DNA of 64,000 nt, taken from the NCBI RefSeq assembly GCF_015158295.1, contig NZ_JACDXV010000002.1, forward strand, positions 381,501 through 445,500, read 5' to 3'. The position numbers and the translations under genes are program-made. The stretch is from Devosia faecipullorum (lineage in GTDB: Bacteria > Pseudomonadota > Alphaproteobacteria > Rhizobiales > Devosiaceae). Positions within the stretch are counted from its first letter, which is position 1. Each line of letters starts with the position of its first letter. The notes beneath the pieces were generated by a model. That model saw only the letters and a list, made by a program, of their open reading frames with translations, ran no database searches and was not told the origin of the DNA. Shown here in pieces: positions 14,173-26,957 of this stretch.

Positions 14173-14524
14173 GAGCGTGTCCGTCCGGTCGAATGAGGTG
14201 AAGATGCGATAGCGCCGCGCGGCTTCGGGGGCAAGGGTTTCGCAATCGCTCCCATTGCCGGAATGCGGAGCGGCATTGTGGATGGCGGCGGTGGCGTGTC
14301 CTGCGAGCGTAGCTCTTCGGGCCTATTCGGCTCTGATCGCGCCACTGGCGCGCTCAGCCCCTTGTTTGCGGCACCGCCCTGCGAGCGTAGCTCTTCGGGC
14401 CTATGCCCTTCCAGTCGCGCCACTGGCGCGCCAGGCCGCTTTTGCGGACAGGGCATAGTTAGCACTTCTTAAACCGTTCCGGCTGAATATGCCTCCCGGA
14501 GAAGGCTCCGGGGACACGCCAGCC
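14173..14524. other. 352-bp divergent region before the che locus
   Basis: Contains the two 54-bp tandem repeats at 14300-14431 and, to their right, an AT-richer stretch (14456-14490) likely to hold the promoter of the STAS-cheY1-cheA-cheW block. No gene was seen. Confidence 0.5.
14300..14431. repeat. Two 54-bp direct repeats, 78-bp period
   Basis: Copies at about 14300-14353 and 14378-14431 both begin CCTGCGAGCGTAGCTCTTCG, run through GGCCTAT and end with CGCGCC-ACT-GGCGCG, a 6-bp hairpin. The middle ~15 bases differ between copies. The CCTGCGAGCG/AGCTC segment and the hairpin could both fold in RNA. Confidence 0.75.
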
Positions 14525-14812
14525 ATGGCCAAGCAGACCAGTACAGCAGTCGCGCTGCCAGCAATCATTGATCTCGATTCCATAGACGCCATTCGCGACC
14601 AGCTCGCCGATGCGCTGGAAGAAGGCCCGGTGGTGGTGGATGCAGCCGGCGTCGAGCGGGTTTCGACCAATGCCCTCTTGCTCCTGATCAGCGCCGCCGA
14701 GACGGCGCGTAGAAACCATTTCGATTTTGCTATTGCCACGCCGAGCGCCGCCATGACCGGTGCAGTCGAGCGGCTGGGACTGGGCGCCCAGTTTTCGGGG
14801 ATGATGAGATAA
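14525..14812 (+). CDS. STAS-domain protein of the che locus (CheS-like)
   Basis: 95 residues with an anti-sigma-antagonist-type STAS fold (VVVDAAGVERVSTNALLLLISAAETARR). It is the first gene before cheY1-cheA, where rhizobial che operons carry a ~97-residue protein; in Sinorhizobium meliloti that protein, CheS, binds CheA and speeds dephosphorylation of the sink regulator CheY1. Equivalence is inferred from position and size. ATG at 14525 is preferred; an in-frame ATG at 14489 would add 12 residues. Its stop overlaps the next start (TAATG). Confidence 0.7.
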   Translation: MAKQTSTAVALPAIIDLDSIDAIRDQLADALEEGPVVVDAAGVERVSTNALLLLISAAETARRNHFDFAIATPSAAMTGAVERLGLGAQFSGMMR

Positions 14813-15177
14813 TGACATTGCGCGTATTAACGGTGGACGATTCGCGGACCATCCTGGCCATGCTTCACCATACGCTGTCCAATGCAGGGTTCGAGGTATT
14901 GCAGGCCGAGGATGGCAAGCAGGGCCTGGACATGCTCAAGGCCGAGGCCGTGGATGTGGTGATCACCGACATTAACATGCCGGTGATGGACGGTATCGAA
15001 TTCATCAAGAATGTACGCGCCACCGGCCAGCACAATTCCCTGCCCATCCTGATCCTCACCACCGAAACCAGCCAGGACAAGCGCGACCAGGGCAAGGCCG
15101 CCGGCGGTACCGGCTGGATCGTCAAGCCTTTCGACCCGGAAAAGCTGATTTCGGTAATCCACCGCGTCGTGCATTGA
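14812..15177 (+). CDS. cheY1: Chemotaxis response regulator CheY1
   Basis: 121 residues, a single receiver domain with acidic pocket D9/D10, phosphoacceptor D53 (ITDINMPVMDG), conserved Thr83/84 and Lys105 (VKPFD). By position, coupled to the STAS gene and upstream of cheA, it corresponds to rhizobial CheY1, which acts as a phosphate sink draining phosphate from CheA and CheY2. The motor-binding role is more likely for the second CheY at 23718. Confidence 0.9.
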   Translation: MTLRVLTVDDSRTILAMLHHTLSNAGFEVLQAEDGKQGLDMLKAEAVDVVITDINMPVMDGIEFIKNVRATGQHNSLPILILTTETSQDKRDQGKAAGGTGWIVKPFDPEKLISVIHRVVH

Positions 15178-15214: not shown

Positions 15215-17548
15215 ATGAGTGATCTCGACGATTTCAAGGCGACCTATTTCGATGAATGTTCCGAGCTCCTGACCGAGCTCGAAGAGCAGTTCGCAGCAAT
15301 CGAGGCCGGTGAGCGCGACAGCGACCGGCTCAATGCCGTGTTCCGCGCCATCCATTCGATCAAGGGCGGCGCCGGGGCCTTCGGCTTCTCGGCCCTGGTG
15401 GGCTTCGCCCATGCCTATGAAACATTGCTCGATTATGTGCGCGACGGGCGGGTGGAACTCACCGACGAGGTGGTAAACCTGTGCATCCGCGCCAATGACA
15501 TCGTCGCCGACCATGTCAATGCCGCCCAGTCCGGGGACGAGCTGCCAGCCGATTACGGCGCCGACGAAAAGGCGCGGTTCGACGCCCTGGCACGGGGCGA
15601 AAGCGCTGGAGACGAGGACGGCGAGACAATGGAGGAATTCGATATCGAATTCACTCCGGTCATGGTCAATCTGGGTGGCGAGGCTCCGGTTGAAGACGCC
15701 TTCGAGGCCGCGCCCATGCAAGCTGCCGACGGTGCCTGGGAAATCCGCTTCACCCCGCATCGCGCGCTTTATGCCCGCGCCAACGATCCCCTGCTGCTGT
15801 TCCGCGAACTGGCCGCCTTGGGCGAGATGCAGGTGCGGGTGCGCATGGGCGAAGTGCCTCCGCTGGCCGATTTCGACCCCTTTGCCGTCTATTGCTCCTG
15901 GGAGATCACGCTGGCCTCGCCCGAGCTGGGCGAAGCCGCGATAAGGGAAGTGTTCGAATTCGTCGATGGCGATTGCGACATTGTCATCACCCAGGCCGGT
16001 TCCACGCCCGCCATCGGACTGGCGCTGACGGACGATTTCGCCGCCGCGATGCAGGCCGATGCAGACGAGGAAACGCCGGACCGCTCGAGCCTGCTGGCGC
16101 TGACCGAAGACGAGATGAACCAGGCGAACCCGCTGCTGGCGGATGTCGATATGGCCGAGACCATGCTGGCGTCCGAGGATTTCGCGCCCGAGCCCCCGCC
16201 CGCGCCCACCGGCGCGCAGGATGCGTTCGAGGAAGCGCCGGGCCTGTCTTTTGCGGCGCTGGTCGATGAAATCAAGCCTGCACCAGTGGTGAGCGCGCGG
16301 CCGACGCCGCCGCCAGCGGCCAAGCCGCCCGCTGCTTCGGGCGATGGCGAGGACGCACATCGCTCGGTCGGCGTGCAGTCGATCCGCGTCGATCTCGACA
16401 AGGTGGACCGCGTGGTCAACATGGTGGGCGAACTGGTGATCACCCAGTCCATGCTCACCCAGCAGATGGATGAGACGTTGCGGGCGCGTTACACCGAATT
16501 GGTGCGGGGCCTCGAGGTCCTGGCGCAGACGACACGGGGATTGCAGGATTCGGTGATGGCGATCCGCGCCCAGCCGGTGAAATCGGTGTTTTCGCGCATT
16601 CCGCGCCTCGTGCGCGAACTGGCGAACAAGACCGCCAAGAAGATCAAGCTCGAGACCATTGGCGAGAACACCGAAATCGACAAGACGGTGATCGAGCAAT
16701 TGTCCGATCCGCTCACCCATATGGTGCGCAATTCGGCCGATCACGGCATTGAAGAGCCCGCGACCCGCCTCGCGGCCGGCAAGAGCGAAACCGGCACGAT
16801 CCGGCTTTCCGCCGAGCAGGCGGGCGGCAATATCCTCATCATCGTGGAAGATGACGGGGCCGGGATCAATCGCGAGCGGGTGCTGAGACTGGCGCGCGAC
16901 AAGGGGATCGTGGCCCCAGACATCACCCCGACCGACGAGCAGATCGACCAGTTGATCTTCGCGCCGGGTTTCTCCACCGCCGAGGCGGTGAGCGATATTT
17001 CCGGGCGCGGCGTCGGCATGGACGTGGTGCTCTCCAATATCAAGAAGATCGGCGGCTCGGTGCATGTGCGCAGCTGGACCGGCAAGGGCACGCGCATGAC
17101 GCTGCGCCTGCCACTGACCCTGGCCGTGCTCGACGTCATGCTGGTCAAGGTCGGGGACAGCCCCTATGTGGTGCCGCTCTCCTCGATCGTGGAAACCATG
17201 CAATGTTCGAGAGCCAATTTCGAGCGCGTGCCCTCGGGCGGACGCGTCTTGCAGGTGCGCGGGGAATATGTGCAGGTCATCGACCTGGGCCAGCGCTTCG
17301 GCATGAACGCGGCCAATGCGCCCGACGATCAATTCGTGGTCCTGTGCGAGACCGAGGGCAGCCAGAAGGTGGCGCTGGTGGTGGACGACATTATCGGCCA
17401 GCAGCAGGTGGTGATCAAATCGCTCGAAGAGAATTTCGAGCGCGTCGACGGCATTGCCGGCGGCACGATTCTGGGCGACGGCAATGTGGCGCTGATCGTG
17501 GACGTGCAGGGTTTGCGCAGCACCCATATTCATCAGAACGCGGCCTGA
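15215..17548 (+). CDS. cheA: Chemotaxis histidine kinase CheA
   Basis: 777 residues with the full P1-P5 layout. HPt phosphorylation site H47 (AIHSIKGGAGAFGF); a P2-like region with EIRFTPHRALYARANDPLL at about 180-200; Pro/Ala linker; P3 dimerisation helices from about 388; kinase N box HMVRNSADHG (~502), G1 DDGAG (~546) and G2 GRGVGMD (~598); CheW-like P5 from ~640. It autophosphorylates in response to receptors and passes phosphate to both CheYs and CheB. Confidence 0.96.
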   Translation: MSDLDDFKATYFDECSELLTELEEQFAAIEAGERDSDRLNAVFRAIHSIKGGAGAFGFSALVGFAHAYETLLDYVRDGRVELTDEVVNLCIRANDIVADHVNAAQSGDELPADYGADEKARFDALARGESAGDEDGETMEEFDIEFTPVMVNLGGEAPVEDAFEAAPMQAADGAWEIRFTPHRALYARANDPLLLFRELAALGEMQVRVRMGEVPPLADFDPFAVYCSWEITLASPELGEAAIREVFEFVDGDCDIVITQAGSTPAIGLALTDDFAAAMQADADEETPDRSSLLALTEDEMNQANPLLADVDMAETMLASEDFAPEPPPAPTGAQDAFEEAPGLSFAALVDEIKPAPVVSARPTPPPAAKPPAASGDGEDAHRSVGVQSIRVDLDKVDRVVNMVGELVITQSMLTQQMDETLRARYTELVRGLEVLAQTTRGLQDSVMAIRAQPVKSVFSRIPRLVRELANKTAKKIKLETIGENTEIDKTVIEQLSDPLTHMVRNSADHGIEEPATRLAAGKSETGTIRLSAEQAGGNILIIVEDDGAGINRERVLRLARDKGIVAPDITPTDEQIDQLIFAPGFSTAEAVSDISGRGVGMDVVLSNIKKIGGSVHVRSWTGKGTRMTLRLPLTLAVLDVMLVKVGDSPYVVPLSSIVETMQCSRANFERVPSGGRVLQVRGEYVQVIDLGQRFGMNAANAPDDQFVVLCETEGSQKVALVVDDIIGQQQVVIKSLEENFERVDGIAGGTILGDGNVALIVDVQGLRSTHIHQNAA

Positions 17549-17651
17549 CCTATTGCCGGGAAAATGCCCGGATGGCCGTTAAGACATTGGCGTCATCTGG
17601 CGCGCTAGAATGAGGCAAGTGCCCAGAACGGGCAGAGGAAGGGCAAACGAA

Positions 17652-18140
17652 ATGGAAGCGCTGAGCCTTCGCGACGACATGGGTGACAAGACGGCGATCG
17701 CCGGAGCGAATACCCTGCAATTGATCGCCTTCTCCATCGGCGAGCAGACTTATGGCGTGGAAATCACCACAGTGCGCGAAATCCGCGCCTGGAACGGGGC
17801 GACGCCCCTGCCCAATACGCGCGAATTCGTGCGTGGGGTGATCAATCTGCGCGGCACGATCGTGCCGATCTTCGACCTGCGCGCCCGCTTCGGGGACGGC
17901 CAGACCTCGCCCACCAAGAACCATGTCGTGGTGGTGATGAGCGTCGGCGACAAATGGGTCGGCATCCTGGTGGATGCGGTGAGCGACATTCTGACGGTCA
18001 ATCGCGACGACATCCACAATGTGCCCGAAGGCAATGCCATCGACACTGAATTGCTCAACGGCATCGTCACCCATGACAGCCGCATGGTCGGGCTGATCGA
18101 CCTGCATGCCGTGGTGACCGGCGCCAAGATGGACGGCTAG
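17652..18140 (+). CDS. cheW: Chemotaxis coupling protein CheW
   Basis: 162 residues; joins receptors to CheA. CheW signatures LIAFSIGEQTYGVEITTVREI, FVRGVINLRGTIVPIFDLR and VGILVDAVSDIL are clear. ATG at 17652 has GGAAGGG upstream and gives family length. It ends the first che block: a strong terminator follows within 30 bp. Confidence 0.95.
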   Translation: MEALSLRDDMGDKTAIAGANTLQLIAFSIGEQTYGVEITTVREIRAWNGATPLPNTREFVRGVINLRGTIVPIFDLRARFGDGQTSPTKNHVVVVMSVGDKWVGILVDAVSDILTVNRDDIHNVPEGNAIDTELLNGIVTHDSRMVGLIDLHAVVTGAKMDG

Positions 18141-18313: not shown

Positions 18314-18859
18314 ATGACCAAGACCCGCATTGCCGTCGACATGGACGAAGTCATCGCCGATGCCCTGACCGCAATGCGATCATGGGCGAGATCGGCGTAT
18401 CAGCGCGAGTGGACCGACGATGAAATGGCCGGGCGCAGCATGGGCGAGCTGCTGGGCAAGGACGGGCTGGCGGCCCTGCACGCCCATATGCATGAAGGGG
18501 AGTTCTTCAGGCATTTGCCGGTGATCGACGGCGCCCAGGCGGCGCTGCGCGCGCTCGCGGCAGACCACGAAATCTTCATCACCACCGCTGCGATGGAATT
18601 TCCGCTATCGCTGAAGTTCAAGCGGGAATGGCTGGACGAGCATTTCGACTTTCTCAATCCCCTGAACTTCGTGTTCTGCGGCGACAAGAGCATCATCAAT
18701 GCGGATTTCCTCATCGACGACCATGCGCGCCATTTCCGCCGCTTTGTCGGCCAAGGAATCTTGTTTGATGGGCATCACAATGTGCAGGTCAACGATTTTC
18801 CGCGCCTAAAGCACTGGCGGGATGCCGAAAGCCTGATTGAAAATCTCAAGCGCCGATAA
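18314..18859 (+). CDS. HAD-family 5'(3')-deoxyribonucleotidase-like protein (NT5C type)
   Basis: 181 residues. HAD motif I DMDEVIAD at about 9-16, motif II Thr pair (IFITTAAM), and a late acidic motif FLIDDHARH match the NT5C family, which removes phosphate from deoxynucleoside monophosphates. It is inserted between cheW and the cheT-like/cheD genes with its own upstream spacing, and has no evident chemotaxis role. Substrate not determinable here. Confidence 0.8.
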   Translation: MTKTRIAVDMDEVIADALTAMRSWARSAYQREWTDDEMAGRSMGELLGKDGLAALHAHMHEGEFFRHLPVIDGAQAALRALAADHEIFITTAAMEFPLSLKFKREWLDEHFDFLNPLNFVFCGDKSIINADFLIDDHARHFRRFVGQGILFDGHHNVQVNDFPRLKHWRDAESLIENLKRR

Positions 18860-18884: not shown

Positions 18885-19238
18885 TCAGAACAGTTCCGGG
18901 TCGCCATGGGACTGATGGGCGGCGATGCCGGACAGGGCGGGCACGCGCAGCTCGTCAAGGGTCAGGCTGGCCCAGATCTCGTCATAGACGCTGTCGGGCG
19001 CGGTGGGCGGGAGCAGCGCGAACTGGCGGACGGCGAGTGCCATATTGTGACAGCGCTGCTCGATTCGGTCCTGGCCCTGCATGGCGGTGACGATCAGCTG
19101 GATGGCCTGGCGCACGGACGGATCCTTGCCGACCTGGCGGTCCGCCAGCAGCTCGAGCGCCTCCGTGATGCCTTCCAGCATGGCCGCCGTCTGACGAGCC
19201 GTTTCATCCAGCTCTCTAGCGAGTTTTTGCAGCGACAT
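18885..19238 (-). CDS. CheT-like putative CheY phosphatase with DxxxQ motif
   Basis: 117 residues, mostly helical, rich in Leu, Ala and Gln, with no membrane segment. Helix AMQGQDRIEQRCHNM at about 53-66 carries Asp57 and Gln61 spaced as D-x3-Q, the catalytic pattern of CheZ and of S. meliloti CheT. It lies beside cheD, as cheT does in Sinorhizobium, but on the opposite strand. Identification rests on motif, size and position only. ATG at 19238 was taken because the open frame further upstream crosses the divergent cheD promoter. Ribosome site is weak. Confidence 0.55.
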   Translation of the reverse strand: MSLQKLARELDETARQTAAMLEGITEALELLADRQVGKDPSVRQAIQLIVTAMQGQDRIEQRCHNMALAVRQFALLPPTAPDSVYDEIWASLTLDELRVPALSGIAAHQSHGDPELF

Positions 19239-19406
19239 TGAAAACCGAACCCCAGCCTGATGCGGCCAGTCTATCGCGGCATTTCTAAATCTCTTCTTGC
19301 CTTGTCCGGTGACGGGGGAGCGCCTTGGCGTTGTGGTTAGCAATTGGCTAACGAGTTTGCCGCTACCATCGGCGCTAATTCGCCCGCAAAGGTTAAGCAG
19401 CGACAG

Positions 19407-19997
19407 ATGGCCCTCAATACTTCCTTGCCGCCCGAATTCGATCGCGGGGTGGTGACCACCGTCCATCAGGGCGATTGCCATGTGTCTGCCGCCCCCGATG
19501 TCACCTTTTCCACGGTGCTGGGATCATGCGTATCGGCCTGCGTTCGCGACCGGGTCGCCAATGTGGGGGGGATGAACCATTTCCTTCTCGCCGAACAGTC
19601 GGGATCGGCCAAGGACCGCTACGGCGCCTCGGCGCGCTATGGCGCCTTCGCCATGGAGCAATTGATCAACAAGGTGCTGAGCCAGGGCACCGGCAACAAG
19701 GCCAATCTGGAGATCAAGATCTTCGGCGGCGGCAAGATCAATTCGGTGCTGGACGATGTGGGCGCCAAGAATATCGAATTCGTGCGCCAGTTCCTGATCG
19801 ATGAAGGCTATGTCTCGACCAGCGAGGACCTGGGCGGCACCTATGCGCGGCGCGTCCTGTTCAAGCCCCATTCGGGCCGCGCCTTCGTCAAGCGTCTCGA
19901 CAGCGAAGTGGGCGCCAGTGTGGCTCGGGAAGAACTGGCCGTGGCCCGCCGCCGCGTCGTGGTGCCGACGGTCGTGGACGATATCGAATTGTTCTAG
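19407..19997 (+). CDS. cheD: Chemoreceptor glutamine deamidase CheD
   Basis: 196 residues. Catalytic Cys41 in STVLGSCVSACV and His58 in GGMNHFLL keep the CheD spacing, with Ser35/Thr36 at the third position. It deamidates receptor glutamines to glutamates for adaptation. It opens the second che block; starts at 19407 or possibly 19344 in frame. Divergent from the CheT-like gene. Confidence 0.92.
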   Translation: MALNTSLPPEFDRGVVTTVHQGDCHVSAAPDVTFSTVLGSCVSACVRDRVANVGGMNHFLLAEQSGSAKDRYGASARYGAFAMEQLINKVLSQGTGNKANLEIKIFGGGKINSVLDDVGAKNIEFVRQFLIDEGYVSTSEDLGGTYARRVLFKPHSGRAFVKRLDSEVGASVAREELAVARRRVVVPTVVDDIELF

Positions 19998-20119: not shown

Positions 20120-21673
20120 ATGCCGGAGCGTCCTGCGACATCAGTTGATTCGATCCCTTACGGCCGCGCTTTCAAGCTGATGCTGGGCGCGGCGGGGCTC
20201 TGGCTGTTCGCCGGGCTGATTGCCCTGGGCCTGCTGCTGGGCCTTGGGCCGGGACCGCGCTGGTTCGCTGCGCTGGGCAGCCTTGCCGCACTGGCGCTCG
20301 CCTGGAGCCTGGCGGCGGGACATTTCATCGACCGGCGCGACGAAAGGCATATGGCGGCATTGGCGCAGGCGGCCGGACTTGCCGAGCGTCAGGGGGAGGC
20401 GCTCACTATCGCCGATATTGTGCGGCTTCTGGGCAAGAGGCTGGAGCGGGCGCATCATTTCCGCAGCGCCATCGGGCATCTCGATGGCCTGGTGATCGTG
20501 GCCGATGCCGAGGGCACCATCGTCGCCATCAGCGCCGGCGCCGAAAAGCTGGCGCCGGGCATCGGCGAGGGCAAGAATCTCGATGCCCTGTTCGGACCAG
20601 GTTATCTCGCCGCTGGCGGCGCGCCCCGGGCCGGGCTGGTCCTCGTGGGCGGCCGGCGGCTTGAACTGGTCCGGCACGACCTGCCCGCGGGCCGGCAAGT
20701 GCTGGAATTGCGGCCGGCTGGATATTTTCTGGGCGATGACGAATTCGACGCGCTGGCCGGGGCCATCGGCACCGGGCAATTCTCCTTCCGCTTCGAACAG
20801 GCGGCGGCGCAGGCCAATCCGGCGCTGGACCTGCTCAATGGCAGCCTTGAACGCATGGATGCGGGACTGGCCCAGTTCCGCACGATCCTGACCGGCCATG
20901 TGGATCGCGCCGCCGACCCCGACCTGCCCCTGGGCGAGGAAAGCCGGGACGTTCTCGACATGCTGACGGCCCTGCTGGATCAGCAGGACGAGGAGGCCGC
21001 GGCGCGGCGCGCCCTCGAAGCCAAGCTCGAAGCGGTCAAGAGCCTGCTCAGCCAGTTCGAAGCGCGGGCGATCGAACTGGAGGCGGCGGATGAGCGCGGC
21101 CGGCTGGCACGGGCCGCGGGGGCGGAACGGCTCTCCATGCTGGAACGGCGCCAGGCCGAACTGGGCCAGCGCGGACAGCAGGCTGCAACGCTTGCCGCCA
21201 GCCTCATGGCGACAGCGCAGCGGACGCAGGTTCTGGTCGAGCAGATCGATCGCATGACCCAAGAGATCGACAAGATGAGCGCGGGGATCGAGGACGTGTC
21301 TTTCCGCACCAATCTCTTGGCGCTGAACGCGGCGGTGGAAGCGGCGCGGGCCGGCGAAAAGGGCGCCGGCTTTGCCGTGGTCGCCGACGAGGTGCGCCAA
21401 TTGGCGCAGGCCACCAATCGCTCGGCCAAGGATATCCGCATCATTGCCGACAAGGGGCGCAATCAGGCGCAGGCCGGGATCGGCGAAGCCGGAGAACTGC
21501 AAAAAATAACCCGCAGCCTCGAAGAGCATTTACGCAATCTAAGCAATGATGAGACCAGTATCGCGGCCGAAGGGGAAGCAGAGGCGGCGTTGACCAAGCC
21601 TTTTCCGTTTCCTGCAAGGGCGACCAATCGCGATGGTCAGAAGACCGTCCTGGACCGCCAAGCCGCCAGCTAG
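20120..21673 (+). CDS. Atypical methyl-accepting chemotaxis-type receptor, two N-terminal TM segments and PAS-like domain
   Basis: 517 residues. Two close hydrophobic helices (about 20-42 and 48-68) with almost no periplasmic loop, a PAS-like segment (about 113-200, [20 protein letters not shown]), a long coiled coil, and a hairpin tip [20 protein letters not shown] near residue 395-415. The protein stops about 65 residues after the tip, so the second methylation helix is missing, and it lacks the W-x-E-F tail of the other receptors here. It sits between cheD and cheR. It may sense a cytoplasmic or membrane signal, or serve as scaffold. Confidence 0.8.
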
Positions 21674-21706: not shown

Positions 21707-22549
21707 ATGGAACAGGGGGAATTCACCCTCAGCGAGCGGGAATTCACGCGGATCAAGTCGAGAGTCTATTCGGTCGCCGGAATTTCGCTTTCGGACGCCA
21801 AGCGCACCCTGGTCGTATCGCGGCTCTCCAAGATCGTGCGTGCATTGGGCCTGCCGAGCTTCGACGCCTATGTGGATTATCTCGAGCGCAATGGCTCGGA
21901 AGATGACGGGCAGGAATTCGTCAATGCGCTCACCACCAATCTCACGCGGTTTTACCGCGAGGACCATCATTTCGAGCATCTGCGCGCCCATGTCGGTGGC
22001 CTGATGGCCGAAAGGCCGCGCGGCAGCCGCCTGCGCATCTGGTCGGCGGGATGCTCGACCGGACAGGAACCCTACACGATCGGGCTCGACCTGCTGGCGG
22101 CGTTTCCCGATCTCAAACGCTGGGATTTCAAAATCCTCGCCACCGATATCGACACCTCGGTGATCGCCAAGGCGGCGCGGGGCGTCTATCCCGAAAACGA
22201 ACTGGCCGGGATCAGCCCCGAGCGGGCGCGGCTGTTCGAAAAGGCCGGTGACGGCTCGATCCGCATTCCCGCCGCAGCGCGGGATCTGGTCTCGTTCAAG
22301 CCGCTCAACCTCATCGGCGCCTGGCCGATGAAGGGGCCGTTCGACGCCATTTTCTGCCGCAACGTCGCTATCTATTTCGATAAGCCCACCCAGGGCGAAA
22401 TGTTCGGGCGCTTCGCCAAGCTTCTGGCGCCAGAAGCCTTCCTTTATATCGGCCATTCGGAAAATCTGGGCTCGGGCGGGGAAGGTTTCCGGCTCGTGGG
22501 CAAGACTATCTATCAAAGCCGTGAAAAACTGAACAAGCGAGCTGCATGA
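21707..22549 (+). CDS. cheR: Chemotaxis methyltransferase CheR
   Basis: 280 residues: a helical N-terminal domain (IKSRVYSVAGISLSDAKRTLV) and a SAM-binding domain with WSAGCSTGQEPYTIG at about 112-126, FKILATDID and FDAIFCRNVAIYF. It methylates receptor glutamates. Stop overlaps cheB start (ATGA). The W-x-E-F tails of the nearby receptors are its likely docking sites. Confidence 0.95.
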   Translation: MEQGEFTLSEREFTRIKSRVYSVAGISLSDAKRTLVVSRLSKIVRALGLPSFDAYVDYLERNGSEDDGQEFVNALTTNLTRFYREDHHFEHLRAHVGGLMAERPRGSRLRIWSAGCSTGQEPYTIGLDLLAAFPDLKRWDFKILATDIDTSVIAKAARGVYPENELAGISPERARLFEKAGDGSIRIPAAARDLVSFKPLNLIGAWPMKGPFDAIFCRNVAIYFDKPTQGEMFGRFAKLLAPEAFLYIGHSENLGSGGEGFRLVGKTIYQSREKLNKRAA

Positions 22550-23598
22550 TGAGCATCAAGGTACTTGTCGTCGATGATTCGGCGCTGATCCGCGAGGTGC
22601 TGGGCCGCATGCTGGAGCGCGATGGCGATATCCAGGTGATCGGCACGGCGGTCGACCCCATCGATGCGCGCGAAAAGATCAAGCAGCTCAATCCCGACGT
22701 GGTGACGCTCGACATCGAAATGCCCAATATGAACGGGCTGGCCTTTCTCGAAAAACTGATGCGGCTGCGCCCCACCCCGGTGGTCATGGTCTCGACCCTG
22801 ACCAAGAAGGGGGCCAGCGAAACGCTTCTGGCGCTCGAACTGGGCGCGGTGGATTTCGTAGCCAAGCCGAGCGCGGAATTCGCCGGCGGGCTGGATGCAT
22901 TCGGCATCGGTCTGCGCGACAAGATCAGGGCCGCCGCCAAGTCCGACGTGCGGGGCCGTTCGGCGAGCCGGGTGGATAGTCCCAAGGTGGCCGTGCGCAC
23001 AGCAGCGGCGCCGGAAGGCGCGCTGATCGCCATCGGCGCCTCGACGGGCGGGGTCGAGGCGATCCGGGCGGTGCTGTCGCAATTGCCCCAGGATTGTCCT
23101 CCCGTCGTCATCGCCCAGCATATGCCGGCCGGTTTCACCGGGCGGTTCGCGGCGCGGCTGGATGAATTGTGCGCACTCAAGGTCACCGAGGCCGAGGATC
23201 GCGCGCCGCTGCTTGCCGGTCACGCCTATGTGGCGCGGGGCGATCATCACTTGCGGGTGGAACGCAGTTCGGGCCAGCTCAAATGCCGGCTGGGCCAGGA
23301 GGGGCTGGAAAGCGGCCACCGGCCCAGCGTCGATGTGCTGTTCGAATCGGTGGCCAAGGTGGTGGGGCCAATGGCGGTGGGGGCGATCCTGACCGGCATG
23401 GGGCGCGACGGCGCGCGCGGGCTCAAGCTGATGCGCGAGGCCGGCGCCTACACATTGGGGCAGAACCAGGCATCGGCGCTGGTCTATGGCATGCCGCGCG
23501 TGGCATTCGAGGAAGGCGCGGTGGTCGAGCAGGCGCCTCTGGAGCAGATCGCGGCCAAGCTGGCCAATGCACTGGTGAAGCTGAAATCGGCCGCCTGA
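22546..23598 (+). CDS. cheB: Chemotaxis methylesterase CheB
   Basis: 350 residues. Receiver domain with DD at the start and phosphoacceptor in TLDIEMPNMNG (about 56), joined by a linker to the methylesterase with catalytic Ser in IGASTGG (~166), His in AQHMPAGF (~191) and Asp in GMGRDGARG (~288). ATG at 22546 overlaps cheR; a second ATG follows immediately. Confidence 0.95.
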   Translation: MMSIKVLVVDDSALIREVLGRMLERDGDIQVIGTAVDPIDAREKIKQLNPDVVTLDIEMPNMNGLAFLEKLMRLRPTPVVMVSTLTKKGASETLLALELGAVDFVAKPSAEFAGGLDAFGIGLRDKIRAAAKSDVRGRSASRVDSPKVAVRTAAAPEGALIAIGASTGGVEAIRAVLSQLPQDCPPVVIAQHMPAGFTGRFAARLDELCALKVTEAEDRAPLLAGHAYVARGDHHLRVERSSGQLKCRLGQEGLESGHRPSVDVLFESVAKVVGPMAVGAILTGMGRDGARGLKLMREAGAYTLGQNQASALVYGMPRVAFEEGAVVEQAPLEQIAAKLANALVKLKSAA

Positions 23599-23717: not shown

Positions 23718-24107
23718 ATGCCAAAAGCAAGCGCTGTCAGCGTCCTGATCGTTGACGACCAGCAGTCGATGCGCGGTATCGCCAAATACATTCTGACCCA
23801 ATTGGGATTCAAGGATATCATCGAAGCCAAATCCGGGCGCGACGCGCTGGGCAAGCTTGAGAAATCCAATGTCGATCTGATCATTTCCGACTGGAACATG
23901 GACGATATTGACGGGCTGACCCTGCTCAAGGTCATCCGCAAGCATCCCCGCACCCAGGCCATGCCCTTCATCATGGCGACCGGGCGCTCCGACAAGGAAC
24001 AGGTCAAGGAAGCCATTTCCTTCGGGGTCAATAATTACATCATCAAGCCGTTCGACGCGATGACGATGAAAAAGCGTATCGAGGCAGTGATCGGCGCGCT
24101 GACCTGA
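23718..24107 (+). CDS. cheY2: Chemotaxis response regulator CheY2
   Basis: 129 residues; single receiver with D13/D14, phosphoacceptor D58 (ISDWNMDDIDG), Thr88 and Lys110 (IIKPFD). The DWNM pattern is that of flagellar-switch-binding CheYs, so this is the likely motor regulator. AGAGGTAAG just upstream fixes the start at 23718. Last gene of the second che block, with a terminator 25 bp downstream. Confidence 0.93.
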   Translation: MPKASAVSVLIVDDQQSMRGIAKYILTQLGFKDIIEAKSGRDALGKLEKSNVDLIISDWNMDDIDGLTLLKVIRKHPRTQAMPFIMATGRSDKEQVKEAISFGVNNYIIKPFDAMTMKKRIEAVIGALT

Positions 24108-24455: not shown

Positions 24456-26957
24456 ATGAAACTGTTTCCGCATCTAAAAATCGCCCAGAAACTACCCCTG
24501 GCGCTGGTGGGTTCGGCGCTGCTGGTAAGCGCCGGCGTCGGCATTGCCAGCTATATGATCGGGCTGGGCACGGTGCAGGAACAGCGCGACCAGTCGATGC
24601 AGGCCTCGCTCAATACGGCAGTGGCGCTGGTCAGCGAGTATTACGGCAGCGCCGAGGTCGATCTCAGGCTCTTCGTGCAGCGCGCCGACACGGCGACGGC
24701 GATGAAGAACCTCACCCGGGCGCTGGACGAATTGCGCATGGGCCTGGGCGAAGGCGCGACGACGCAATTGCAGACCGCCTATGTCACCGAAAGTCCCAAG
24801 CCCGAGGACCGCGCCTCGGTGGACAGCAATATCAAGGGGGCCACCTATGACGCGCCGCATAAGCGGTTTCATCCCGGCTTCCGCACCCTGATGCAGGAGC
24901 GCCATTACGCGGACGTGCTGCTGATCAGCGCCGCGGGCGACGTGGTCTATTCGGTGGCCAAGAATATCGATTTTGCCAGCAATGTGGGCAGCGACGGGTC
25001 GGGACTGGGACAGGCTTTCGCTGCGGCGAAGGATCTCGCGGATGGCGAGGCGGCTTTTGTCGATTTTTCCCTTTATGGTCCCACGGGCTCGGCGCAGAGC
25101 TTCATGGCCATGCCGGTCTATGACAAGGCGGAAAATACCGGCGTCATGGTGCTCTCGATCGCGCCCGATGCGGTGAGCGCCCGTGTCTCGGGTCTCTCCG
25201 GCATGGGGCGGAGCGGGGAAGTGGTGGTGGTGGGCAGCGATGGATTGCTGCGCACTGAATCCCCCCGCACCGAGGAAGCCGACGTCCTGGCCAGCGTCCT
25301 GACCAGCGACGCCATTGCCAATGCCTTTGCCGGCATTTCCGGGGAAGGCGGCAGCAGCGATTATCGCGGCGCGCCCATGGTGGTGCGGGCCGCGCCGGTC
25401 AGCATCGGCGCCGTCACCTGGGCGGTGGCGGCGGTGCAGCCGGAGGAGGAAGCCTTCGCCGCCGTGGTGCAGATGCGGAACATGACGCTGGCCATTGGCG
25501 GGGGCCTGCTGACCATTGCCGCGCTGCTGGGCGCCTGGTTTGCCCGCTCGATCAGCCGCCCGATCACCCGGCTTACCGACAGCATGGAAGCGCTGGCCAA
25601 TGGCGATCTGTCGGTGGCGGTGGATGGCGGGGCGCGGCATGACGAAATCGGCGCCATGGCGCGCAATGTGGAAGTGTTTCGCGAGAATGCGCTCAAGGTC
25701 AATGCCATGACCGAGGCGGAAGCGGCGCGGATCATCGCCAGCCAGGCCGAGCGCGCGGCGATGATGCAGGATCTGCAGCGCGCCTTTGGCGATGTGGTGG
25801 ATGCGGCGGTGGCAGGAGATTTCTCGCGCCGCGTCACCGCCGAATTCCCCGATGACGAACTCAATGCGCTGGCGCGTTCGGTCAATGGTCTGGTGGAGAC
25901 GGTGGACCGGGGGCTGGGAGAGACCGGGGCGGTGCTGTCGGCGCTGGCCAATACCGATCTCACCCAGCGCATGGACGGCGATTATCAGGGCGCTTTCGCC
26001 CGGCTCAAGGCCGATACCAATGCGGTGGCCGAAAAGCTCACCGATATCGTGGGGCAATTGCGCGATACGTCGCGCACCCTCAAGACCGCGACGGGCGAAA
26101 TCCTTTCCGGCGCCAACGATCTGTCCGAGCGCACCACGAGACAAGCGGCGACGATCGAGGAAACCTCGGCGACGATGGAGCAATTGGCCTCGACGGTCAT
26201 GGCCAATGCCGAACGGGCCAAGGAAGCCAGCACTGTGGCGAGCGGGGTGACCCATACGGCCGAAGAAGGCGGGCAGGTCATGGCCAATGCCAATGAGGCA
26301 ATGGAGCGGATCACCCAATCCTCGGCGAAAATCTCCAACATTATCGGGCTGATCGACGACATCGCTTTCCAGACCAATCTTCTGGCGCTCAACGCCTCCG
26401 TGGAAGCGGCGCGGGCGGGAGAAGCGGGCAAGGGCTTTGCCGTGGTGGCGGTGGAAGTGCGGCGCCTGGCGCAGAGCGCGGCGCAGGCCTCGAGCGACGT
26501 CAAGGCGCTGATCGAGCAGAGCGCCACCGAGGTCAAGGGCGGTTCGCGCCTCGTGGCCGATGCGGCGGGCCGGCTCGAGCAGATCCTGTCCTCGGCCCGG
26601 GCGTCGAGCGAATTGATGAACGGGATCGCGCGCGAAAGCCAGGAACAGGCCGCTTCGATCGATGAGGTCAACAGCGCGGTGCGGACCATGGACGAGATGA
26701 CCCAGCACAATGCCGCCCTGGTCGAGCAGATGAATGCCTCGATCGAGCAGACCGAGGCGCAGGCCAGCCAGCTCGACCGCATCGTCGATATTTTCGCCCT
26801 CGAGGAAAAAGCGGCGCCGGTGGCCCCGCCAATCCGTGCCACCGCTGTACCGGGCACGGCGGGGGCGCGCGGGCTTCAGACCCGGCTGGACAAAGTGGCC
26901 AAATCCTATCTCACCAAGGGCAATGCCGCGCTGGATGCGGATTGGAGCGAGTTCTGA
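24456..26957 (+). CDS. Methyl-accepting chemotaxis protein 1 of the tandem array
   Basis: 833 residues. TM1 at about 15-37, a ~305-residue periplasmic sensor of Cache-like character (exact family unclear), TM2 at about 343-365, HAMP, a long second HAMP-like segment, and the signalling hairpin with tip [20 protein letters not shown]. It ends in ALDADWSEF, a CheR/CheB-binding tail. GGGGAAGG precedes the ATG at 24456. The largest sensor of the five; ligand unknown. Confidence 0.9.

Follow-up and report, generated by a model that had tools for sequence, protein, structure and literature searches.

Among the described chemotaxis proteins, the closest counterpart of the gene analysed here is CheT, which was first described in 2024 in Sinorhizobium meliloti and for which the accessible part of a review names relatives in related alphaproteobacteria only (PMC12654446). 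According to the same part of that review, CheT has a DXXXQ motif, speeds the dephosphorylation of just one of the two CheYs, is found in S. meliloti in a complex with CheR, and has a 70% identical counterpart in Agrobacterium, Atu0522 (PMC12654446). A chemotaxis defect is reported for S. meliloti cheT mutants in the accessible text of another study (PMC8429497). The McpA-like receptors provide a second point of comparison. As described in the accessible part of the source, these receptors associate with the F6 array and have a highly conserved C-terminus of unclear role; the C-terminus of Pseudomonas aeruginosa McpA, with V at position 2, binds none of four CheRs, and F6 is the only system that includes cheZ in stages 1 and 2 (PMC7184735). 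The available excerpts of two further papers tie a McpA-like form of P. aeruginosa to trichloroethylene chemotaxis (PMC7534058) and report that swimming of Shewanella oneidensis is unchanged by McpA deletion and increased by McpA overproduction (PMC9855816).

The gene lies in a window of 64 000 nucleotides (the whole stretch of DNA that was analysed; C2:381501-445500) from the 3.4-Mb assembly of Devosia faecipullorum, in which it is matched once. An earlier note, made from the sequence of this window, had pointed to an ORF with D57 and Q61 in the DxxxQ spacing. The ORF, of 117 amino acids, is a real, conserved gene located between cheW and an NT5C gene on one side and cheD on the other, on the strand opposite to cheD. 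The features of the locus, in window coordinates, are as follows.

14489..14812, plus strand: cheS-like STAS protein (PF13466, 54 bits; 30% identity, z 9, to the STAS protein at the S. meliloti cheS position)
14812..15177, plus strand: cheY1, the predicted substrate (57% identity to S. meliloti CheY1, 32% to CheY2)
15215..17548, plus strand: cheA (41.7% identity to the protein annotated as CheA in S. meliloti)
17610..18140, plus strand: cheW, start codon unsettled (42.6% identity to the protein annotated as CheW in S. meliloti)
18314-18859, plus strand: NT5C-type nucleotidase, between cheW and the CheT-like gene
18885..19238, minus strand: gene for the CheT-like protein, 117 amino acids (ATG start, conserved ORF, profile homology to CheT)
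18888..18896, minus strand: C-terminal E-L-F tail of the CheT-like protein ([ED][LF]F end in 63 of the 64 relatives)
19053..19079, minus strand: conserved DxxxQ block, codons Q54-G-Q-D57-R-I-E-Q61-R62 (D57 at 19068-19070, Q61 at 19056-19058)
19239..19406, no strand: intergenic region from which the cheT-like gene and cheD diverge, possibly a shared regulatory region
19407..19997, plus strand: cheD (PF03975, 85.4 bits; C-terminal DIELF)
20120..21673, plus strand: protein with an MCP signalling domain in the cheD-cheR interval (PF00015, 87.3 bits)
21707..22549, plus strand: cheR (PF01739, 201 bits)
22546..23598, plus strand: cheB (PF01339, 216 bits)
23718..24107, plus strand: cheY2 (42% identity to S. 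meliloti CheY2, 36% to CheY1)

The cluster runs in the order STAS, cheY1, cheA, cheW, NT5C, CheT-like gene (minus strand), cheD, MCP-domain protein, cheR, cheB and cheY2, followed by more MCPs. The proposal that this locus encodes a full phosphate-sink set, with CheA, two CheYs, and CheS-like and CheT-like proteins, is supported in its parts by the similarity of CheY1 (57%), CheY2 (42%) and the STAS protein (30%, z 9) to those of S. meliloti, and no CheZ scores above the cut-off in the genome. CheY1 has N two residues after the phospho-Asp and E two residues after the switch Thr, as in E. coli CheY, compared with N and R in CheY2. For the NT5C-type nucleotidase, no blastp match (E 1e-8) is listed in the loci of the 64 relatives described below. 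The same genome carries a second che cluster with CheA, MCP, CheR and CheB (G000:C2, about 676600-685600; L197:7611-16570). This cluster encodes a 569-aa protein without a Pfam match that has LQVGDATRQR, an instance of the QxxDxxxQ pattern, and is a second candidate phosphatase.

The CheT-like gene has 64 relatives in the GTDB collection, of which 54 are titled Devosia and the rest Maritalea, Pelagibacterium and eight broader or odd names, with the identity to the window's protein reaching 92%. The reading frame is free of stops, and the QxxDxxxQ pattern with D57 and Q61 is kept, in all 64. In the 8 comparisons computed out of 64, dN (0.06-0.23) is far lower than dS (0.77-1.36), the latter being near saturation. 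One copy, 75% identical, is on a contig binned as Thermomicrobiaceae (L045) that is probably misbinned. The gene adjoins cheD head-to-head in each of the 64 relatives (gap of 26-483 bases in 60, unmeasurable in 4 where the chosen ORFs overlap). This divergent orientation is thus a constant of the group rather than a peculiarity of the window; a relative from another family of the same order, L103, has it as well. The earlier observation that the gene is opposed to cheD, with an operon order unlike that of CheT, is borne out by this comparison, the rhizobial genes being on the same strand. In 12 of the 64 loci, the order is cheT-cheD-cheR-cheB-cheY2, with cheA and cheW unrecognised nearby, which may reflect split clusters or contig ends.

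The Pfam scan of the CheT-like protein gave nothing over the cut-off, its sole row being DUF982 (E 0.022), and NCBIfam gave zero matches at E up to 10. The best hit of the PDB sequence search was a Mediator subunit (E 0.13), and a profile made from the alignment A1 reached E 5.3. This alignment has 36 rows, the window's protein and those of 35 of the 64 relative loci, with 29 relatives omitted. Across the 36 members, Pfam yields scattered weak rows from unrelated families, each in 1 to 11 members, the best being T4SS in one member (E 0.0005). PF00015 has no match in the CheT-like protein and one among the A1 members (E 0.072), that is, the protein is without an MCP signalling domain.

A lone DxxxQ is not significant, given that a random protein of the same length and composition would contain 0.66 copies on average; it is the conservation across the relatives that takes the motif beyond chance. 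In A1, the mean identity of residues 54-62 is 98%. The helix-1 block, residues 6-16 (LARELDETARQ), which contains an ExxxQ (E12/Q16), is equally conserved, at 98-99%. The AlphaFold2 model built with A1 (mean pLDDT 79; below 50 for residues 103-117) consists of helices 2-32, 40-53, 56-74 and 82-91, with D57 and Q61 at the start of the third of these. The prediction that a helix bears both residues on one face agrees with this model and with the position of the hydrophobic core: relative to the centre of the D/Q face, the hydrophobic moment points to -151 degrees in the 36 Devosia-type sequences, -151 in 46 CheTs, -154 in 29 receptor-fused modules (see below) and -153 in 31 CheZs, and it is over 90 degrees from the face in 36/36, 45/46, 28/29 and 31/31 of these, respectively. 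Among the matches listed by Foldseek and VIA-align 2, there are many kinds of helical hairpins and bundles (Mediator Med11/22, designed bundles and others) and CheZ is absent, which proves nothing.

For the comparison with CheT, the S. meliloti protein was taken to be the product of the gene without a name between cheD and fliF (record L162), an assignment that fits the Agrobacterium CheT gene number, Atu0522, given in the accessible part of the review (PMC12654446). As the earlier note stated, this gene is next to cheD and has the same motif, which here reads D57-LAV-Q61. Together with 45 loci from the order, identified by position and profile, it makes up a CheT set of 46; of the 52 loci found with the profile, 7 were excluded as weak (L138, L156-L161). 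All 46 have D and Q at the aligned motif positions. When the 36 Devosia-type rows are compared with the 46 CheTs by hhalign, the result is 92.5% with a score of 41.0, and none of 100 column shuffles reaches this score (best 25.4); with the outside relative L103 added, it is 95.9% and 51.3, again with 0 of 100 shuffles reaching it (best 22.7). Masking DxxxQ reduces the Devosia-type comparison to 51.0%, or 83.6% with L103 (86.4% with L103 under a narrower mask), and removing the tail gives 78.0% and 88.1%, respectively. With motif and tail both masked, the values drop to 2.2% and 5.0%, so that much of the link to CheT rests on short segments. In the pairwise comparison, the CheT-like protein and S. 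meliloti CheT are 26% identical with z 2.7, which is not significant, and none of the 20 genomes listed for the family of the window is matched by a five-row CheT profile. Thus, the homology to CheT that had been suggested is detected by profiles only, and these support the CheT-like protein as a remote but real member of the CheT family. A minimal form is seen in a Sphingomonas parapaucimobilis plasmid (L230:8464-8730), where an 88-aa hypothetical protein encoded behind a CheB-like gene has QAVDRITQ, matches the CheT profile and is tail-less.

The relationship to CheZ is another matter. PF04344 gives no row for the CheT-like protein at E up to 10 and is absent from the 25 families listed across the 36 members of A1 (one more is not shown). 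CheZ was represented by the E. coli protein alone, and then by 30 sequences from the order plus E. coli; against these, the Devosia and CheT profiles score 0.2-2.5%, and the value for Devosia with L103, 2.5%, is reached by 1 of 100 shuffles. The receptor-fused module rose from 8.2% with 5 rows to 70.8% with 29 rows and fell to 0.3% once the motif was masked, so its apparent kinship to CheZ was rejected as due to the motif only. Of the 'CheT/CheZ-type' label attached to the gene, the CheT part is upheld by the profile homology, and the CheZ part by the motif and the helix face, whereas kinship to CheZ beyond the motif did not emerge; 'CheZ-type' is to be read as a description of the motif and the helix face. 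As for distribution, the best match to CheZ in this genome is an ATPase-like protein with 15.9 bits, below the Pfam cut-off, and 61 of the 101 genomes of the order have a CheZ above it. The scan included four genomes from the window's family. Three are without CheZ; the fourth, G093, encodes a CheZ in another part of the genome from its CheT-like gene, which argues that the protein is not simply a CheZ substitute. CheC, CheX and FliY also remove phosphate from CheY; they have another fold and an ExxN motif, and the CheT-like protein has no Pfam match to these families.

In other genomes of the order, the Devosia profile weakly matches the C-terminus of soluble MCP-domain proteins encoded directly after cheB. 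These receptor-fused modules have Q-F-Q-D-R-x-x-Q, an FxLxE-type segment and a C-terminal DDIELF or similar sequence. A set of 29 (with L219, L221, L222 and L223 excluded and G082 represented twice, L096 and L198) compares with the Devosia profile at 96.8%, or 97.6% with L103, and with CheT at 93.6%, with 0 of 100 shuffles reaching the score in either comparison; when the motif is masked, 93.9% is retained against Devosia (with L103) and 85.1% against CheT. A mixed profile matches 27 of 385 alphaproteobacterial genomes, with QxxDxxxQ in all 28 foreign loci read and an [IV][ED][LM]F end in 25 of the 28. A second mixed profile matches 156 of 398 genomes of the phylum; among the best 29 foreign loci from these 156 genomes, two of which (G588 and G082) were already in that profile, QxxDxxxQ is present in 29 and the end is [IV][ED]LF in 26 and ITFF in 3. 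Both profiles contain the motif and the tail, so that these counts depend on the search. The LxxLNA receptor tip occurs in 11/28 and 13/29 of the module proteins; of 9 others that were chosen, 8 pass the cut-off for PF00015, and the ninth (L256) is without any Pfam match.

A scan of 17 che loci with three profiles detected one module in each, fused in 5 and stand-alone in 12, with a weak extra match (L108, a 472-aa ORF, E 0.002) set aside. This distribution suggests that the receptor-fused module and stand-alone CheT substitute for one another. At E up to 1, the stretches around cheD from Cupriavidus (L231, 4.5 kb) and Azospirillum (L228, 14 kb) yielded no CheT-like module, so some cheD loci have none nearby. 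In the F7-like cluster of an environmental Vibrio, the MCP-domain protein behind cheB has QFTDIIVQ, ends with EVELF and matches the profile; this protein holds the place of the McpA-like receptors. By extension, the McpA-like receptors could be array-bound CheY phosphatases, with the [IV][ED]LF-type tail as a signal for docking that differs from NWETF, the peptide that binds CheR. We advance this possibility tentatively and would not bet on it: it is rated lower because McpA-like receptors are on the F6 array and F6 has cheZ, because CheZ is also present in two (G058 and G082) of three genomes in which the fused form was matched, and because deletion of McpA in S. oneidensis is without a change in swimming. 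In the literature within reach of the search, which most subscription papers were beyond, nothing connects McpA-like receptors with CheT or with a phosphatase of the DxxxQ type.

CheD, a deamidase, has a C-terminal peptide similar to those of the CheT-like protein and of the receptor-fused module. Among the relatives of the CheT-like protein, L010 ends with AELF and one has the tail VRS, probably a locus in which the match runs into TGG with no stop. CheD ends with DIELF in 63 of the 64 relatives' loci, and the window's CheD tail is at 19980-19994. A CheD tail of the [VILM]E[LF]F type, within 10 residues from the end, is present in records from S. meliloti, Acetobacter, two Azospirillum, Sphingomonas, Comamonadaceae, Cupriavidus and Vibrio; the CheD tail of Phaeobacter is VTLF, and in one Bacillus record CheD is without such a tail. 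A likeness of the ELF-type tail to the CheY-binding peptides of FliM and CheZ was weighed and set aside, as the spacing appears to differ. In the window, the MCPs ending at 26957 and 29194 have the tails DWSEF and DWDEF, which are NWETF-type peptides, so CheR/CheB tether-like and ELF-type tails coexist in the cluster. A role of the ELF-type tail as an NWETF-like CheR tether was considered and lowered, given the reported lack of CheR binding by the P. aeruginosa McpA, which has V at position 2 (PMC7184735). CheR is accordingly the less likely partner of the tail, although CheT is described as binding CheR in the part of the review available (PMC12654446).

Taken together, these comparisons make it probable that the protein is a stand-alone CheT-type phosphatase that empties CheY1-P. 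We infer the catalytic step from the activity attributed to CheT in the accessible part of the review (PMC12654446) and from the CheZ-like helix face. The small helical hairpin would display D57 and Q61 on the helix face away from the core and accelerate the dephosphorylation of a CheY; the likeliest one is CheY1 (14812-15177), the predicted phosphate-sink regulator. Once emptied, the CheY1 sink would help CheA and the CheS-like protein to pull phosphate back from CheY2 and thereby terminate signalling, no CheZ being recognisable in this genome. The ELF tail, which is CheD-like, may dock the protein on a common partner of the chemosensory array.

Three other explanations were weighed. The first, an unlikely one, is a sub-case in which the CheT-type phosphatase acts on CheY2 or on both CheYs and replaces CheZ for the motor regulator. 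The lack of a CheZ over the cut-off in this genome, when 61/101 genomes of the order have one, would fit, but S. meliloti CheT acts on one CheY only (accessible part of PMC12654446), the CheY1/CheY2 pair is conserved here, and G093, from the same family, has CheZ besides the CheT-like gene. The second is an adaptor of the adaptation module whose main task would be to bind CheR, CheD or the array and to regulate adaptation, with DxxxQ serving as a binding surface instead of a catalytic pair. We regard this role as improbable too: the CheT-CheR complex reported for S. meliloti (PMC12654446, accessible part), the likeness of the tail to that of CheD, and the strong conservation of helix 1 (98-99% in residues 6-16) all speak for it, but QxxDxxxQ is kept in stand-alone and receptor-fused forms that are otherwise divergent (albeit found by motif-containing profiles), CheT itself is reported in the same part of the review as a phosphatase (PMC12654446), and the P. 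aeruginosa McpA C-terminus, which is reported to bind none of four CheRs (PMC7184735), argues against this kind of tail as a general CheR tether.

The third explanation, that of a chance motif in an unrelated small helical protein within the che cluster, is disfavoured by the results and highly improbable. The 64/64 conservation and 64/64 synteny, the failure of all 100 shuffles to reach the profile score, and the persistence of homology with the motif masked outweigh the expectation of 0.66 DxxxQ per such protein and the database searches without a Pfam row over the cut-off, an NCBIfam match or a PDB sequence hit better than E 0.13.

With the CheT-type phosphatase as the preferred reading, the analysis places a divergent CheT-family member in Devosia and its relatives and links it, by way of profiles, to the module with which soluble MCP proteins encoded at the McpA position end. 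Should this module dephosphorylate CheY, the finding would bear on how the signal ends in F7-type clusters without cheZ, and on the purpose of the McpA-like receptors.

Compared with S. meliloti CheT, which has 124 amino acids against 117, the Devosia protein has DxxxQ at identical residue numbers (D57-LAV-Q61 in S. meliloti), and both proteins share an LxLxxL segment and an acidic tail ending in F; both genes adjoin cheD in a cluster of the STAS-cheY1-cheA-cheW type. In rhizobia, however, cheT is downstream of cheD on the same strand, whereas the two genes diverge in Devosia and its relatives, and the gene order near cheR/cheB/cheY2 differs between S. meliloti and Devosia. With CheZ (PF04344), the likeness consists of QDxxxQ and an equal angle between the D/Q face and the hydrophobic core. 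The McpA-like receptors (VCA1088, PA0180) are likened to the module proteins by gene position and not by sequence. The features that the module proteins share with the Devosia protein, whose tail is PELF, are the QxxDxxxQ helix, the LxLxE/xLR segment and the [IV][ED]LF-type tail; the receptor-fused module sits behind an MCP signalling domain, whereas the Devosia protein is without a receptor part.
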